Shown: positions 504 through 11,874 of the stretch, one piece after another
Numbering within the stretch: the stretch's first letter is position 1
How the letters are laid out: every line of letters starts with the position of its first letter
DNA from: Candidatus Desantisiibacteriota bacterium
Lineage (GTDB): Bacteria > JACRDZ01
Reading direction: 5' to 3'
Assembly (NCBI GenBank): GCA_016209155.1
Contig: JACQWU010000046.1
Location: 1-11,874 of the forward strand
DNA: 11,874 nucleotides
The notes under the pieces: model-generated
Databases searched by the model: none
Seen by the model: the letters and a program-made list of their open reading frames with translations, nothing else
Told to the model about the DNA's origin: nothing
Translations under genes and position numbers: made by a program

Positions 504-1211
504 ATGAGAAAAAATATAATATTTATTTTAAGTTTTATTTTTTTTACCGGTTGTGCGGGCGCGCATTATCAGGTATTGCCGGGAGCACCTTTGATGGAAA
601 AGGGCAGCCAGAGAATTGCTGTCAATCTCAGTGTATCGATCGGGCAGGAAAAAAAATTAAAATGGTATATACCTCGTGATTGGATAATTTCCAACGAATA
701 TAGATATGGAGTTGGAAATAATACGGATATAGGTATTTATCCTGCCGGATTAAATATCATTCCATGCGCTTTGGATGTCAGATGGCTTGATAAAAAAGAA
801 TCGGATAAATTAAACTTTCACCGGATGGAGTTTTTTTATAATTCTATAACTTATAATAAACAGATTTCAAATATGGGAATAAGATATGATTATTTTATTA
901 AAAAGAACGAACCCAATGAATATGTTATGATGAGAGTTTACGGCGGATCTCTTCTTTTGCTTAAGTTCTGGGATATAGAAAAAAATAATAATAATGTATG
1001 GTATCATCCTATAGCAGGTGTGTTTGCCGGCGAGGAATCGGAAAATGAATTAGATGAAATAGATTATCTCCCGGGTTTTAATTATTTTATGGAGAAACCA
1101 TCCGCCGGAAATCCGCTGCTATATCCCGGTGAAAAGAAAAAAGATTTATATGATTTTTTTATGGGAGATATATTTTTAGGCATAGCACATGGTAATTCAT
1201 ATGCAGAATAA
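504..1211 (+). CDS. Predicted lipoprotein of unknown function
   Basis: This 235-residue protein starts with a lipoprotein signal: basic MRKN, a hydrophobic run to residue 14, then FTGC with the likely lipidated Cys at 17 (Phe rather than Leu at -3). The mature part has many aromatic and alternating residues. A segment near 65-80 (YRYGVGNNTDIGIYPAG) resembles strands of small outer-membrane beta-barrel-like proteins, so a membrane-anchored beta-rich protein is plausible. No family is recognised. The start at 504 follows a modest AGGG ribosome site. The stop is only 19 bases before the first phosphofructokinase gene, suggesting co-transcription, although no functional link to glycolysis can be read from the sequence. 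The reading frame and secretion signal are secure; the function is unknown. Confidence 0.8.
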   Translation: MRKNIIFILSFIFFTGCAGAHYQVLPGAPLMEKGSQRIAVNLSVSIGQEKKLKWYIPRDWIISNEYRYGVGNNTDIGIYPAGLNIIPCALDVRWLDKKESDKLNFHRMEFFYNSITYNKQISNMGIRYDYFIKKNEPNEYVMMRVYGGSLLLLKFWDIEKNNNNVWYHPIAGVFAGEESENELDEIDYLPGFNYFMEKPSAGNPLLYPGEKKKDLYDFFMGDIFLGIAHGNSYAE

Positions 1212-1230
1212 AAAAGAAAGAGGTTAAAAT

Positions 1231-2319
1231 ATGAATAATAAACGAATTGGGGTTTTGACCGGCGGAGGCGATTGTCCGGGATTAAATGCTGTTATAAGAG
1301 CAATTGTTAAACAGGGGATAACGGAATATGGTATGGAAATAACAGGTTTAATTGACGGTTATAAAGGGCTGATTGAAAATAACAGCAAAGTATTGCGGTT
1401 AAAAGATATATCAGGAATACTGACAAGAGGAGGAACTATCCTCGGAACTTCGAATAGAGATAATCCATTCCAATATCAGACGGAAAATAATGGGAAGAAG
1501 GAAATAAAAGATGTTTCTGAGCAAGTATTAGAAAATATAAAAAAATTGAATTTGTCTTCACTTATTGTAATAGGAGGAGACGGATCATTAAAAATTGCGA
1601 ATGAACTTTACAAAAAAGGTGTTCCCATTGTGGGAGTTCCCAAAACCATAGATAATGACCTGTCGTGCACGGAAATAACATTTGGTTTTGATACGGCTCT
1701 TGTTACGGCCACAGAAGCAATCGATAAGCTCCATTCTACCGCTGAATCTCATCACAGAGTTATGATAGTTGAAGTAATGGGGCGTAATGCGGGATGGATC
1801 GCTCTTCATTCCGGTATTGCAGGAGGCGCGGATTTAATACTTTTACCTGAAATGCCTTTTAGTATTGATAAAATATGTAAAAAGGTTATTGAAAGGCATA
1901 GCATAGGAAAAAAATTCAGTATTGTTGTAGTTGCTGAAGGCGCTTATGAAGCAGGCAGCAGCGTTGTGGTAAAAAAGATAGTAAATGATATTTCAATGCC
2001 CGTGCGTCTTGGTGGAATAGGAAATAGGGTAGGGGATGAGATTGAGAAAAAAACAGGGATTGAAACACGTGTTACTGTTTTAGGACATCTGCAAAGAGGC
2101 GGAACTCCTTCTGCTTTTGATAGAATTCTTGCAACACGTTTCGGCAGTATGGCAGTAAAAATGGTAAATGAAGAAAAAAGCGGGATTATGGTCGCACTTA
2201 AAAATGCGGAGATTGTTTCTGTTCCTATTGAGGAAGCTATACAAAAACCTAAATATATAGATCCCGAAAGTCAAATAATAAATATTGCGCGTTCAATAGG
2301 AATATCTTTTGGAAATTAA
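1231..2319 (+). CDS. pfkA: 6-phosphofructokinase, ATP-type donor residues (first of tandem pair)
   Basis: This 362-residue protein is a complete PfkA-family 6-phosphofructokinase, which phosphorylates fructose 6-phosphate to fructose 1,6-bisphosphate in cytosolic glycolysis. The phosphate-binding GGGDCPGLN is at 11-19, GGDGS at 115-119, PKTIDND at 137-143 with catalytic Asp141, MGR at 183-185, and GHLQRGG at 285-291. The residue matching E. coli Gly104 is Gly118, which favours ATP; the one matching Gly124 is Lys138. This Gly/Lys combination occurs in ATP-dependent actinobacterial enzymes (TIGR02483-like 'mixed' clade), so ATP is the likely donor but not certain. A GAGG site lies just before the ATG. 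The gene sits 19 bases after the lipoprotein gene and 25 bases before a paralogue, as part of one operon. No truncation is seen. Confidence 0.95.
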   Translation: MNNKRIGVLTGGGDCPGLNAVIRAIVKQGITEYGMEITGLIDGYKGLIENNSKVLRLKDISGILTRGGTILGTSNRDNPFQYQTENNGKKEIKDVSEQVLENIKKLNLSSLIVIGGDGSLKIANELYKKGVPIVGVPKTIDNDLSCTEITFGFDTALVTATEAIDKLHSTAESHHRVMIVEVMGRNAGWIALHSGIAGGADLILLPEMPFSIDKICKKVIERHSIGKKFSIVVVAEGAYEAGSSVVVKKIVNDISMPVRLGGIGNRVGDEIEKKTGIETRVTVLGHLQRGGTPSAFDRILATRFGSMAVKMVNEEKSGIMVALKNAEIVSVPIEEAIQKPKYIDPESQIINIARSIGISFGN

Positions 2320-2344
2320 AGCATAATGAAGGAGGAAATAGCAA

Positions 2345-3379
2345 ATGGTAAAACGTATTGGAATATTAACGGGCGGCGGGGATTGTCCCGGTTTAAACGC
2401 GGCTATAAGAGCTATTGTTCGAAAAGGGATAAGTATACATGGGTATGAAATTTTCGGCATTCTTAATGGATGGGCGGGACTTTTGGATGGTAAAATAAAA
2501 CCATTGGGAAGAGATGATGTCTCGGGTATCCTACATAAAGGAGGAACAATAATAGGCACTTCCAGAACCAATCCTTATAAAAGAGATGATGGAGTAGATA
2601 AAATAAAAGAAAATATGAAGATATCAAATCTGGAATCTATTATTGCTATCGGGGGAGAGGATACTCTCGGAGTTGCCGCAAAATTAATTGATGAAGGGAT
2701 AAAAGTAGTGGGAGTGCCTAAAACTATTGATAATGACCTTAAAGGCACTCAGTATACATTCGGATTTGATACTGCGGTTAGTATTATAACAGAAGCTATT
2801 GACCGTCTGCATTCTACTGCAGAAGCTCATCATCGGGTAATAGTACTTGAAGTAATGGGAAGACATGCCGGATGGCTTGCGGTAGTCGGCGGAATTGCCG
2901 GAGGTGCGGATCTTATTTTAATTCCTGAAGAACCTTTTGATATAAATGGAGTATGTGAAGTAATAAAACGCCGTCATCAAAGCGGCAGAGATTTCAGTCT
3001 GGTTGTGGTTTCAGAAGGTGCCAAAGAAAAGGAAATGAATGAAATTACCTCAAGCAAAAGAAAAGATGAATTCGGACATGAGATGCTTGGCGGAATAGGA
3101 AATGTTTTGAGCAAAAAAATAGAAAAAATTACCGGGTTTGAAACCCGCGTTACTGTACTCGGACACACACAGCGCGGCGGTACGCCTACAGCATTTGACA
3201 GAGTACTTGCCACACGCTATGGGATAGCCGCAATAGATCTTATAGCAAAAGATCAATACGGATTTATGGTGGCGCTTGTAGGAGGGGAAATTAAACCAAT
3301 ACCGCTTAAAGAGATGGCAAGCGGTATCAAAACTGTGGATATGGAACTTTATGAAATTGCTAAAGTATTTTTTGGCTGA
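2345..3379 (+). CDS. Phosphofructokinase, PPi-type donor residues (second of tandem pair)
   Basis: This 344-residue PfkA-family enzyme shares the whole fold with its upstream neighbour: GGGDCPGLN at 10-18, PKTIDND at 125-131 with catalytic Asp129, MGR at 171-173, and GHTQRGG near its C-terminal third. The donor loop reads GGEDT at 103-107, placing Asp106 where E. coli has Gly104, with Lys126 at the Gly124 position. Asp/Lys is the classical signature of diphosphate-fructose-6-phosphate 1-phosphotransferase (EC 2.7.1.90), where Asp blocks the ATP alpha-phosphate. The predicted reaction is therefore reversible and could also serve gluconeogenesis. A strong AAGGAGG site (2329-2335) lies nine bases before the ATG. 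The stop codon directly abuts the stop of the convergent gene at 3380. Donor use is inferred from two residues, not shown. Confidence 0.93.
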   Translation: MVKRIGILTGGGDCPGLNAAIRAIVRKGISIHGYEIFGILNGWAGLLDGKIKPLGRDDVSGILHKGGTIIGTSRTNPYKRDDGVDKIKENMKISNLESIIAIGGEDTLGVAAKLIDEGIKVVGVPKTIDNDLKGTQYTFGFDTAVSIITEAIDRLHSTAEAHHRVIVLEVMGRHAGWLAVVGGIAGGADLILIPEEPFDINGVCEVIKRRHQSGRDFSLVVVSEGAKEKEMNEITSSKRKDEFGHEMLGGIGNVLSKKIEKITGFETRVTVLGHTQRGGTPTAFDRVLATRYGIAAIDLIAKDQYGFMVALVGGEIKPIPLKEMASGIKTVDMELYEIAKVFFG

Positions 3380-5759: not shown

Positions 5760-6071
<312 letters not shown>

Positions 6072-9563: not shown

Positions 9564-11874
9564 ATGAAAGCAATTTCAAGAAAAATTGTGATAATTTCAA
9601 TTGCAGCGGCTTTTTTAATAACTAAATTTAATAATATAACAGCAGAATATAATACTGCCAATAAAAATATACCAAAAGATGTACTGGAGAAAATTGAAAT
9701 ATTGGAAAATATGGGGTTGGCAGAGCAATATAAGGTTATTAAAGAATTAGCGGATATGGGGGATAAGGCTATTCCCGCAGTCCCTATATTAATAAAAAAA
9801 TTAAAATATGAAGATTCAGAACTTCGAAAATACTCCGCACAGGCATTGGGCAGTATTAAAGATAATAGTGCTGTTGAACCTTTAATAAAAGCGCTTAAAT
9901 ATAACGATCCGGAAGTTACAACTGCAATAGTTAAATCCCTCGGTAACTTAAAAGATAAAAGATCATTTAATCCGTTAATTGCTTTACTTAAAAACAATAA
10001 AACTAAAAGAATGATACGTCTGGTTATTGTTGATGCCTTATGCGATATTAATGATAAAGGAAGCAGCCCTGTATTAATTGAAATCCTTAATGATGCAGAT
10101 GATGTATTAAGAGTTGCGGCCTCAGGTGCTTTATGGAAACTTGAACATAATGATAAAGCTTTAAATCAATTATTTTCAGCTTTAAAAAGTAAAGATGAAA
10201 ATACAAAAAGAGTAGCGGCTCAGACATTGGCACAATTAAAAGATAATAAATTTGTACCGTTTTTAATTGATGAACTTAATGATAAGGAAAGCAGTATTAA
10301 GGAAAATGCCGCATGGATTTTGGGCAAAATAAAAGATAAACGTGCTGTGGATCCATTGATAGCAGCTTTGAATGATAAAGATACCAATGTCGAAATGTAC
10401 GCGGCGGAAGCATTGGGAGAAATAGGGGACATAAAAGCTATAGAACCACTGCATAGAGTATTCAGGTTTAGCGCGCTAAGTAAAATAAAAGATCCTGAAG
10501 CGTTAAATATCCTAACTGCAATTCTTAAAGATGATTTGTACGGTAGTAATATCAGATGTGAAATCGCTGATGCATTAGGAAAAGCTAAGGAAATTCAGGC
10601 GATTCCGGCATTAATAGAAACATTTAAAGATAAAGATGCTGATCTTAGAAATTATATTGTAATTGCTCTTGATGAAATTAATGATGAAAACACCATGGAT
10701 TTTTTTGTTAATGCCCTCAGAGATGAAGACCGTGATGTAAGAAAAAACGCGATAAAAGCATTAAAAAAAATTAAAAATCCTCAATCGACAGACCTTCTTA
10801 TTAAAGCTCTTAAAGATGAAAACATAAAGGAATATGCCGCTGAAGTTCTTTGTGAAACAGGAAACAGGAAAGCCATTAAACCATTATATGAAATAATTAA
10901 AAATAAAAACGGAGAACTATCAGAAACAGTAATAGAGGCTTTAGGAAAAATAGGCGACGGGCAGGTTGTCGATTATTTAATCGAACTATCTGAAAGTAAA
11001 GACCCGAAAGTTAAAACAATTGCATTGCATGGGTTAATGGCATCAAAAAATGATAAAGCTATAAAACCGCTTCTGGATTTTGCTCTCAAAGAGAAAGACT
11101 TAAGTCTTATTCCTTATAGATTGCAATTACTTGAAAATAAAAAAAATAAAAAAATCGTTGAATATTTGATAGAAAAATTAAAAGATAATGAAGCGGCAAT
11201 AAGAGGCAATGCGGCATTAATTATTGAAAATATTCCTGATAAAAGAGCTATCCCGTCTTTAATTGAAGCTCTTAAGGATAAAGATCAAAATGTTGTAAAT
11301 AATGCCATGAAGGCATTAAAAAGAATATCAAGCTTTGGGTATGGTTCTGATTTATTTATAGACTTGCTCAAAGATGAAAATGAATTCAGCAGATATGTTG
11401 CGATATACATTTTGGGCGGGATGTGTGAGGGGAAGGCGGCTCTCCCTTTGCTTGAAATTTTAGGAGAAAATAAAGATAAAAAAAATCTGAATGTCGCATC
11501 TGATTCATTGCGAAAAATTACTGAAAGATTGGTCCTGCGGCTCAGCTACGACGAAGCGGAAGCGGAGGAAAGAAGAGACGCAGCTCTTTTATTAGGTATG
11601 ATAAATAATAAAAAGACGATAAAACCTTTAATAATGGCCTTAGATGACAGCGATGATATAGTTAAAAAAAATGCGGAAGAATCTTTAAAAAAAATAACAG
11701 GTCAGAATTTTAAAAATAATTCATTGAAATGGAAAATATGGTTTGCCGGGAAAAATGCGGCAGTTGATAGTGAAGATGAAATTCAATCCTTTCCTGATGC
11801 CTGTAAAAATTGGAAATCATTGGTGATTCAATTTGTGGAACTTGAAAATGAAACTATAACTAATTATGAAGCTC
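9564..11874 (+). CDS. Exported HEAT-repeat protein (3' end beyond window)
   Basis: From the ATG at 9564 the frame is open for 770 codons to the window edge, so the gene is incomplete. Residues 1-31 look like a signal peptide or membrane anchor (MKAISRKIVIISIAAAF..ITAEYN). From about residue 55 to 720 there are roughly 20 HEAT/PBS-lyase-type repeats of about 31 residues, with the pattern 'D..VR..AA.ALG.IKD.RAV.PLI.AL.D'. These form an alpha-solenoid used for protein binding, not catalysis. At 723-726 a W..W motif (LKWKIWFAGK) closes the repeat block, as in many HEAT proteins of environmental bacteria. A non-repeat region then begins. A GC-richer segment (about 655-680, LRLSYDEAEAEERR) interrupts one repeat. 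The ribosome site is a weak AAAGAGA. Its partner and role cannot be read from the sequence. Confidence 0.88.
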   Translation, partial: MKAISRKIVIISIAAAFLITKFNNITAEYNTANKNIPKDVLEKIEILENMGLAEQYKVIKELADMGDKAIPAVPILIKKLKYEDSELRKYSAQALGSIKDNSAVEPLIKALKYNDPEVTTAIVKSLGNLKDKRSFNPLIALLKNNKTKRMIRLVIVDALCDINDKGSSPVLIEILNDADDVLRVAASGALWKLEHNDKALNQLFSALKSKDENTKRVAAQTLAQLKDNKFVPFLIDELNDKESSIKENAAWILGKIKDKRAVDPLIAALNDKDTNVEMYAAEALGEIGDIKAIEPLHRVFRFSALSKIKDPEALNILTAILKDDLYGSNIRCEIADALGKAKEIQAIPALIETFKDKDADLRNYIVIALDEINDENTMDFFVNALRDEDRDVRKNAIKALKKIKNPQSTDLLIKALKDENIKEYAAEVLCETGNRKAIKPLYEIIKNKNGELSETVIEALGKIGDGQVVDYLIELSESKDPKVKTIALHGLMASKNDKAIKPLLDFALKEKDLSLIPYRLQLLENKKNKKIVEYLIEKLKDNEAAIRGNAALIIENIPDKRAIPSLIEALKDKDQNVVNNAMKALKRISSFGYGSDLFIDLLKDENEFSRYVAIYILGGMCEGKAALPLLEILGENKDKKNLNVASDSLRKITERLVLRLSYDEAEAEERRDAALLLGMINNKKTIKPLIMALDDSDDIVKKNAEESLKKITGQNFKNNSLKWKIWFAGKNAAVDSEDEIQSFPDACKNWKSLVIQFVELENETITNYEA

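Follow-up and report, generated by a model that had tools for sequence, protein, structure and literature searches.

Side-by-side bacterial phosphofructokinase genes with ADP-type and pyrophosphate-type donor signatures

Two phosphofructokinase (PFK) genes of the same family lying next to each other raise the question of which phosphoryl donor each enzyme uses and how the genes became neighbours. The analysed stretch of DNA (the window) comprises the whole of contig C15 (11,874 bases). It belongs to genome G000, a fragmented assembly of 3.08 Mb in 352 contigs which is 79% complete. Three other genomes from the same phylum were available for comparison. The sequence-only reading had described two adjacent PfkA-family genes, and the ORF check confirmed both as intact frames arranged head to tail, separated by 25 nt. 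The features of the locus are the following:

504 to 1211, forward strand: predicted lipoprotein reading frame from the ORF list, ending 19 nt upstream of PFK1
1217 to 1223, forward strand: AAAGAGG, ribosome-binding-site-like, ahead of PFK1 (read from the sequence)
1231 to 2319, forward strand: PFK1, intact PfkA-family frame of 362 aa with catalytic D141; matches TIGR02483 and PRK14071
1573 to 1596, forward strand: donor motif GGDGSLKI of PFK1, ADP type (Gly at 104, Ile at 108; motif from PMC11609450)
2329 to 2335, forward strand: Shine-Dalgarno AAGGAGG within the gap, 9 nt ahead of the PFK2 start (read from the sequence)
2345 to 3379, forward strand: PFK2, intact PfkA-family frame of 344 aa with catalytic D129; matches TIGR02483
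2651 to 2674, forward strand: donor motif GGEDTLGV of PFK2, pyrophosphate (PPi) type (Asp at 104; sequence motif)

The identity between PFK1 and PFK2 was 53.6%. Their TIGR02483 (PFK_mixed) scores, 472.5 and 470.7 bits, respectively, were above the curated cut-off of 430.55 bits, and PFK1 scored 420 bits with PRK14071. In the alignment with E. coli PfkA, the equivalents of Gly104, Gly108 and Gly124 were G118, I122 and K138 in PFK1 and D106, V110 and K126 in PFK2. This alignment upheld the earlier placement of Gly118/Lys138 and Asp106/Lys126, as did the AlphaFold models (pLDDT 93 for PFK1 and 92 for PFK2), in which the donor-site residues were found at a helix start right after the GG turn. Both models had the PFK-A fold, and the Foldseek top match for each was the Bacillus PFK 3pfk with a TM-score of 0.93-0.95 by target length. 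T125, D127, N128, D129, R162, M169, R171, E222, R243, H249 and R252 (E. coli numbering) were kept in both proteins together with PKTIDND (PK138TIDND in PFK1, PK126TIDND in PFK2). Every catalytic and fructose 6-phosphate (F6P)-binding residue checked was retained, in agreement with the claim that the whole motif set is common to the pair.

The donor assignments given below are predictions resting on motifs. In the case of PFK2 the assignment is straightforward. The combination of Asp104 and Lys124 is the established PPi signature (PMC12203962), and the PPi motif of PFK-A enzymes is GG(D/E)D(S/T)xxx (PMC11609450), to which GGEDTLGV fits exactly. GGEDT and PKTIDND were the forms found for the GG(D/E)D(S/T) and PKTIDXD tests. 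In the maximum-likelihood tree of 71 rows PFK2 was placed within a 22-row Asp104 group with a support of 83/90, and Lys124 was present in 47/47 of the D104-type PFK2-like homologues. PFK2 very probably uses PPi and is, by its motifs, a textbook short PPi-type enzyme, as had been proposed from the Asp/Lys rule. Asp106 would stand in for the alpha-phosphate and Lys126 would hold PPi.

The donor of PFK1 had been read as ATP from the glycine at position 104. According to a review (PMC12203962), Gly104 admits nucleotides, and all solved ATP-PFK structures have Gly at position 108. In a 2024 study Synechocystis PFK-A1 and PFK-A2 and three more enzymes, from Microcystis, Crocosphaera and Azospirillum, were shown to take ADP and not ATP, and the motifs GGDGSxxG for ATP and GGDGSxxI for ADP were derived (PMC11609450). 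By these motifs, ATP and ADP use would be told apart by position 108 and not by Gly104. GGDGSLKI of PFK1 fits GGDGSxxI letter for letter, and with Ile122 at the Gly108 position it departs from the canonical ATP motif. In PFK1 the ATP base-contact positions F73, R77, R82 and R111 were occupied by D, Q, S and E, and the bacterial effector-site set R25, R54, R154, K211 and K213 was found as K, L, H, I and K. PFK1 is likely to use ADP, releasing AMP. Gly118 would admit the phosphate next to adenosine, as in ATP enzymes, and Ile122 would fill the cleft that holds the ATP adenine.

The donor-site residues were followed in PFK1-like homologues from diverse genomes. Gly104 and Lys124 were present in 83/83, and position 108 was occupied by Ile in 68, Val in 7, Ser in 3, Leu in 2, Thr in 2 and Ala in 1; Gly108 of the canonical ATP enzymes was found in none of the 83. 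The PFK1 orthologue of the sister genome G003 had Val at 108. Many of the matches in a DNA-level pattern search for the ADP motif had nothing to do with PFK, and this search was left out of the counts. The aligned homologues indicate that the donor-site differences between PFK1 and PFK2 are clade-wide and not due to chance, because G104/K124 was invariant among the PFK1-like proteins and K124 among the D104-type PFK2-like proteins. In the tree the ADP-type rows were scattered, requiring 3-4 changes, and their grouping into one clade was not rejected (p = 0.375), with a single distant cyanobacterial sequence as the anchor. Two plasmid-borne PFKs annotated as ATP-dependent were also recorded, with Gly/Ile/Lys in Ilyobacter polytropus (L189) and Gly/Val/Lys on the large plasmid of Pseudoalteromonas donghaensis (L191).

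An irreversible ATP-dependent PFK1 beside a PPi-dependent PFK2, the pair originally suggested, has several observations in its favour. Gly104 is kept and admits nucleotides, and Lys124 is present in the ATP-using Trypanosoma PFK (PMC12203962). The nearest NCBIfam models are named ATP-dependent; however, such older names were given before the ADP finding. Actinobacterial relatives with Gly/Ala/Lys, located near the PPi branch, have no Gly108 either, yet ATP use is reported for them in Streptomyces (PMC11609450). In contrast, Ile122 occurs where all solved ATP-PFKs have Gly108 (PMC12203962), the assayed GGDGSxxI enzymes take ADP only (PMC11609450), and a clade III Gly/Lys enzyme was inactive with ATP and GTP (PMC6543838). 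An ATP-dependent PFK1 is accordingly considered unlikely, though it is the foremost of the alternatives. The earlier proposal is thus retained with respect to split donors, which are probable, and the PPi-type PFK2, and it is not supported for ATP use by PFK1, where Ile122 matches the ADP motif and no clade member carries Gly108.

It could also be supposed that PFK1 is a paralogue of little or no activity, with PFK2 alone carrying the reaction. The clade III enzyme gave no activity with three donors, and the sister genome G001, 98% complete, showed a PPi-type gene only. On the other hand, the catalytic residues are fully kept in PFK1 and its clade, and ADP is absent from the donors listed for the clade III enzyme (PMC6543838). 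A PFK1 of this kind appears very improbable.

The origin of the pair was evaluated from the same tree. A local duplication had been suggested by the sequence-only reading. A recent one with a subsequent donor switch in one copy would account for genes which adjoin and are 53.6% identical. Constraining PFK1 and PFK2 together cost 113 log-likelihood units (AU p = 3.6e-5). PFK2 grouped with the PPi-type genes of three phylum members with a support of 100/99, and the nearest row to PFK1 in a quick tree was the G003 gene (support 82), each protein being nearer to its own orthologues. The local duplication was therefore rejected by the AU test and is extremely improbable as an explanation. Gene conversion between the two was rejected as well: there was no homogenised block or raised DNA identity along the pair. 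Since the joint grouping was rejected, the tree indicates that PFK1 and PFK2 are old separate branches which were later brought side by side.

A mixed oligomer, also raised by the sequence-only reading, was considered due to the co-orientation, common fold and similar length of the neighbours. It would either contain a regulatory subunit or serve two donors in one complex. PFK-A enzymes assemble into dimers or tetramers that have shared sites. The ADP-type PFK-A enzymes are oligomeric too (PMC11609450), which was counted for the mixed complex. However, a complete catalytic and F6P residue set is present in each protein, and in G003 the two orthologues are unlinked, on contigs C3 and C6 with unrelated neighbours. 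Such a complex is improbable, and PFK1 and PFK2 each probably work alone because their orthologues are unlinked in G003.

The pairing of ADP-type and PPi-type genes was rare in the material covered. Among the best 30 PFK1-like loci, a second PFK within the 1.5 kb flanks was found only at the window's own locus, and no second ADP/PPi pair was present among the matches listed from 386 genomes. In a PFK survey of 116 genomes, a PPi-type gene next to an ATP-type (GxxG) gene recurred in several unrelated families; the two were side by side at L026/L086 (G004), L087 (G016) and L090 (G039) and on opposite strands at L089 (G081). PPi-dependent and nucleotide-dependent enzymes seem to have been paired several times, because such neighbours were seen in several families, the partner in G000 being ADP-type. 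On contig C123 of G043 (L096), an ADP-type PFK (GGDGTMKI) was preceded at a distance of about 8 kb by a short PPi-type PFK frame of 270 aa in the same orientation. Bacterial PFK frames roughly double the normal size, at 727-756 aa, were detected at L092 (G063), L093 (G107), L094 (G103) and L095 (G028); those of G063 and G107 had two separate PFK-domain matches each, resembling the fused eukaryotic arrangement.

PFK1 and PFK2 are inferred to be co-transcribed as an operon. Promoters and terminators were scanned for, and the promoter matches did not exceed those in shuffled sequences, so co-transcription is deduced from the gene spacing and the Shine-Dalgarno site. The lipoprotein gene upstream is possibly co-transcribed with PFK1; its frame had no NCBIfam match in the profile search and a single sub-threshold Pfam match. 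The Rfam and tRNA scans gave no matches. Elsewhere in the window, a truncated enolase start (5760-6047, reverse strand) consists of a 52 aa match to Enolase_N followed by unrelated sequence. Contig C20 has an intact enolase, and the truncated copy matches the beginning of that gene at 82% identity across 157 nt; it looks like a leftover of a partial duplication. A long HEAT-repeat protein (9564-11873, forward strand) runs off the contig end.

Taken together, the putative operon on balance probably pairs an ADP-dependent PFK (PFK1) with a reversible PPi-dependent one (PFK2), both phosphorylating fructose 6-phosphate. Because the PFK1 and PFK2 signatures point to ADP and PPi as donors, the PFK step of glycolysis in the host probably runs without ATP. 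The PFK2 reaction would be reversible, could serve gluconeogenesis and would carry near-equilibrium flux at little energetic cost, with PPi supplied by biosynthesis, the membrane pyrophosphatase or PPDK. PFK1 would give a one-way push at high ADP.

This proposed physiology was compared with the gene content. G000 encodes a membrane pyrophosphatase and pyruvate kinase. Its PPDK was found as two reading frames (C11:4-2183), which leave model positions 530-651 unaccounted for between them, and the gene is whole in all three phylum sisters; the split could be an assembly error, an insertion/deletion or a broken gene. A profile search of the 79% complete G000 found PFK1 and PFK2 as the only PF00365 genes, and in the four phylum genomes no PFK-B scored above the TIGR03168 cut-off. 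The fructose-bisphosphatase families PF03320, PF00316 and PF01950 were not found in G000, and GlpX is present in its sisters. Since G000 is only 79% complete, the absence of an ATP-PFK and of fructose-bisphosphatase carries little weight. The gene content fits a PPi-linked glycolysis with a reversible PFK2.

ADP-dependent PFK-A enzymes have been described as restricted almost entirely to cyanobacteria and alphaproteobacteria (PMC11609450), and outside these groups the literature search found no ADP assay for proteins of the PFK1 branch. The ADP signature marks this branch in dozens of the surveyed genomes, its members being commonly annotated as ATP-dependent. It is tentatively suggested, as a plausible but not favoured generalisation, that ADP-type PFK-A makes up a bacterial branch which is widespread and has long carried ATP-dependent annotations, and that the host has only ADP and PPi enzymes for the PFK step, in one operon and with no ATP-PFK. 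If the motif holds in the PFK1 branch, the glycolytic ATP accounting would be mistaken in many uncultured bacteria as well as in some cultured ones. The operon offers a natural test of this, as two donor types adjoin in one genome.

In comparison with known systems, PFK1 is closest in its features to the cyanobacterial and alphaproteobacterial ADP-dependent PFK-A enzymes (Sll1196, Sll0745), with which it shares GGDGSxxI, a size of about 40 kDa and the fold; the residue numbers G118 and I122 coincide with those of Sll1196 (PMC11609450). The Acaryochloris PFK (L188) has Gly/Ile/Lys as well, with Lys at the 124 position as in PFK1. PFK1 differs from that group by its lineage and the adjoining PPi-type gene, and is known here from sequence. 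It was 38% identical to the Acaryochloris plasmid copy, the single cyanobacterial sequence compared; ADP-PFKs are stated to be >40% identical to each other (PMC11609450).

The clade III enzyme CDQ83_10650 of Pseudoclostridium thermosuccinogenes was expressed and worked with none of the three listed donors, ATP, GTP and PPi (PMC6543838). Its likeness to PFK1 covers the Gly/Lys pair (Gly117/Lys137) and the membership in clade III, and the termini encoded in its primers, KKRIGV at the front and VSFGD at the back, resemble the PFK1 clade (PMC6543838). The inactivity fits ADP dependence, and the motif, if it holds, would readily explain it; the preparation could also have been dead.

The actinobacterial ATP-PFK (Streptomyces type, GGEGTxxA) has Gly104/Lys124 as in PFK1 but differs by Ala at 108 and by its branch, which lies beside the PPi enzymes and far from PFK1. 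The actinobacterial Lys124 ATP-PFK falls in the wider group recognised by TIGR02483. PFK2 corresponds to the short PPi-dependent PFK-A enzymes (group III; Amycolatopsis and Thermoproteus tenax type) in Asp104/Lys124, the length of about 344 aa and TIGR02483. As a protein it has no notable difference from them, and what is new is its neighbour, PFK1.
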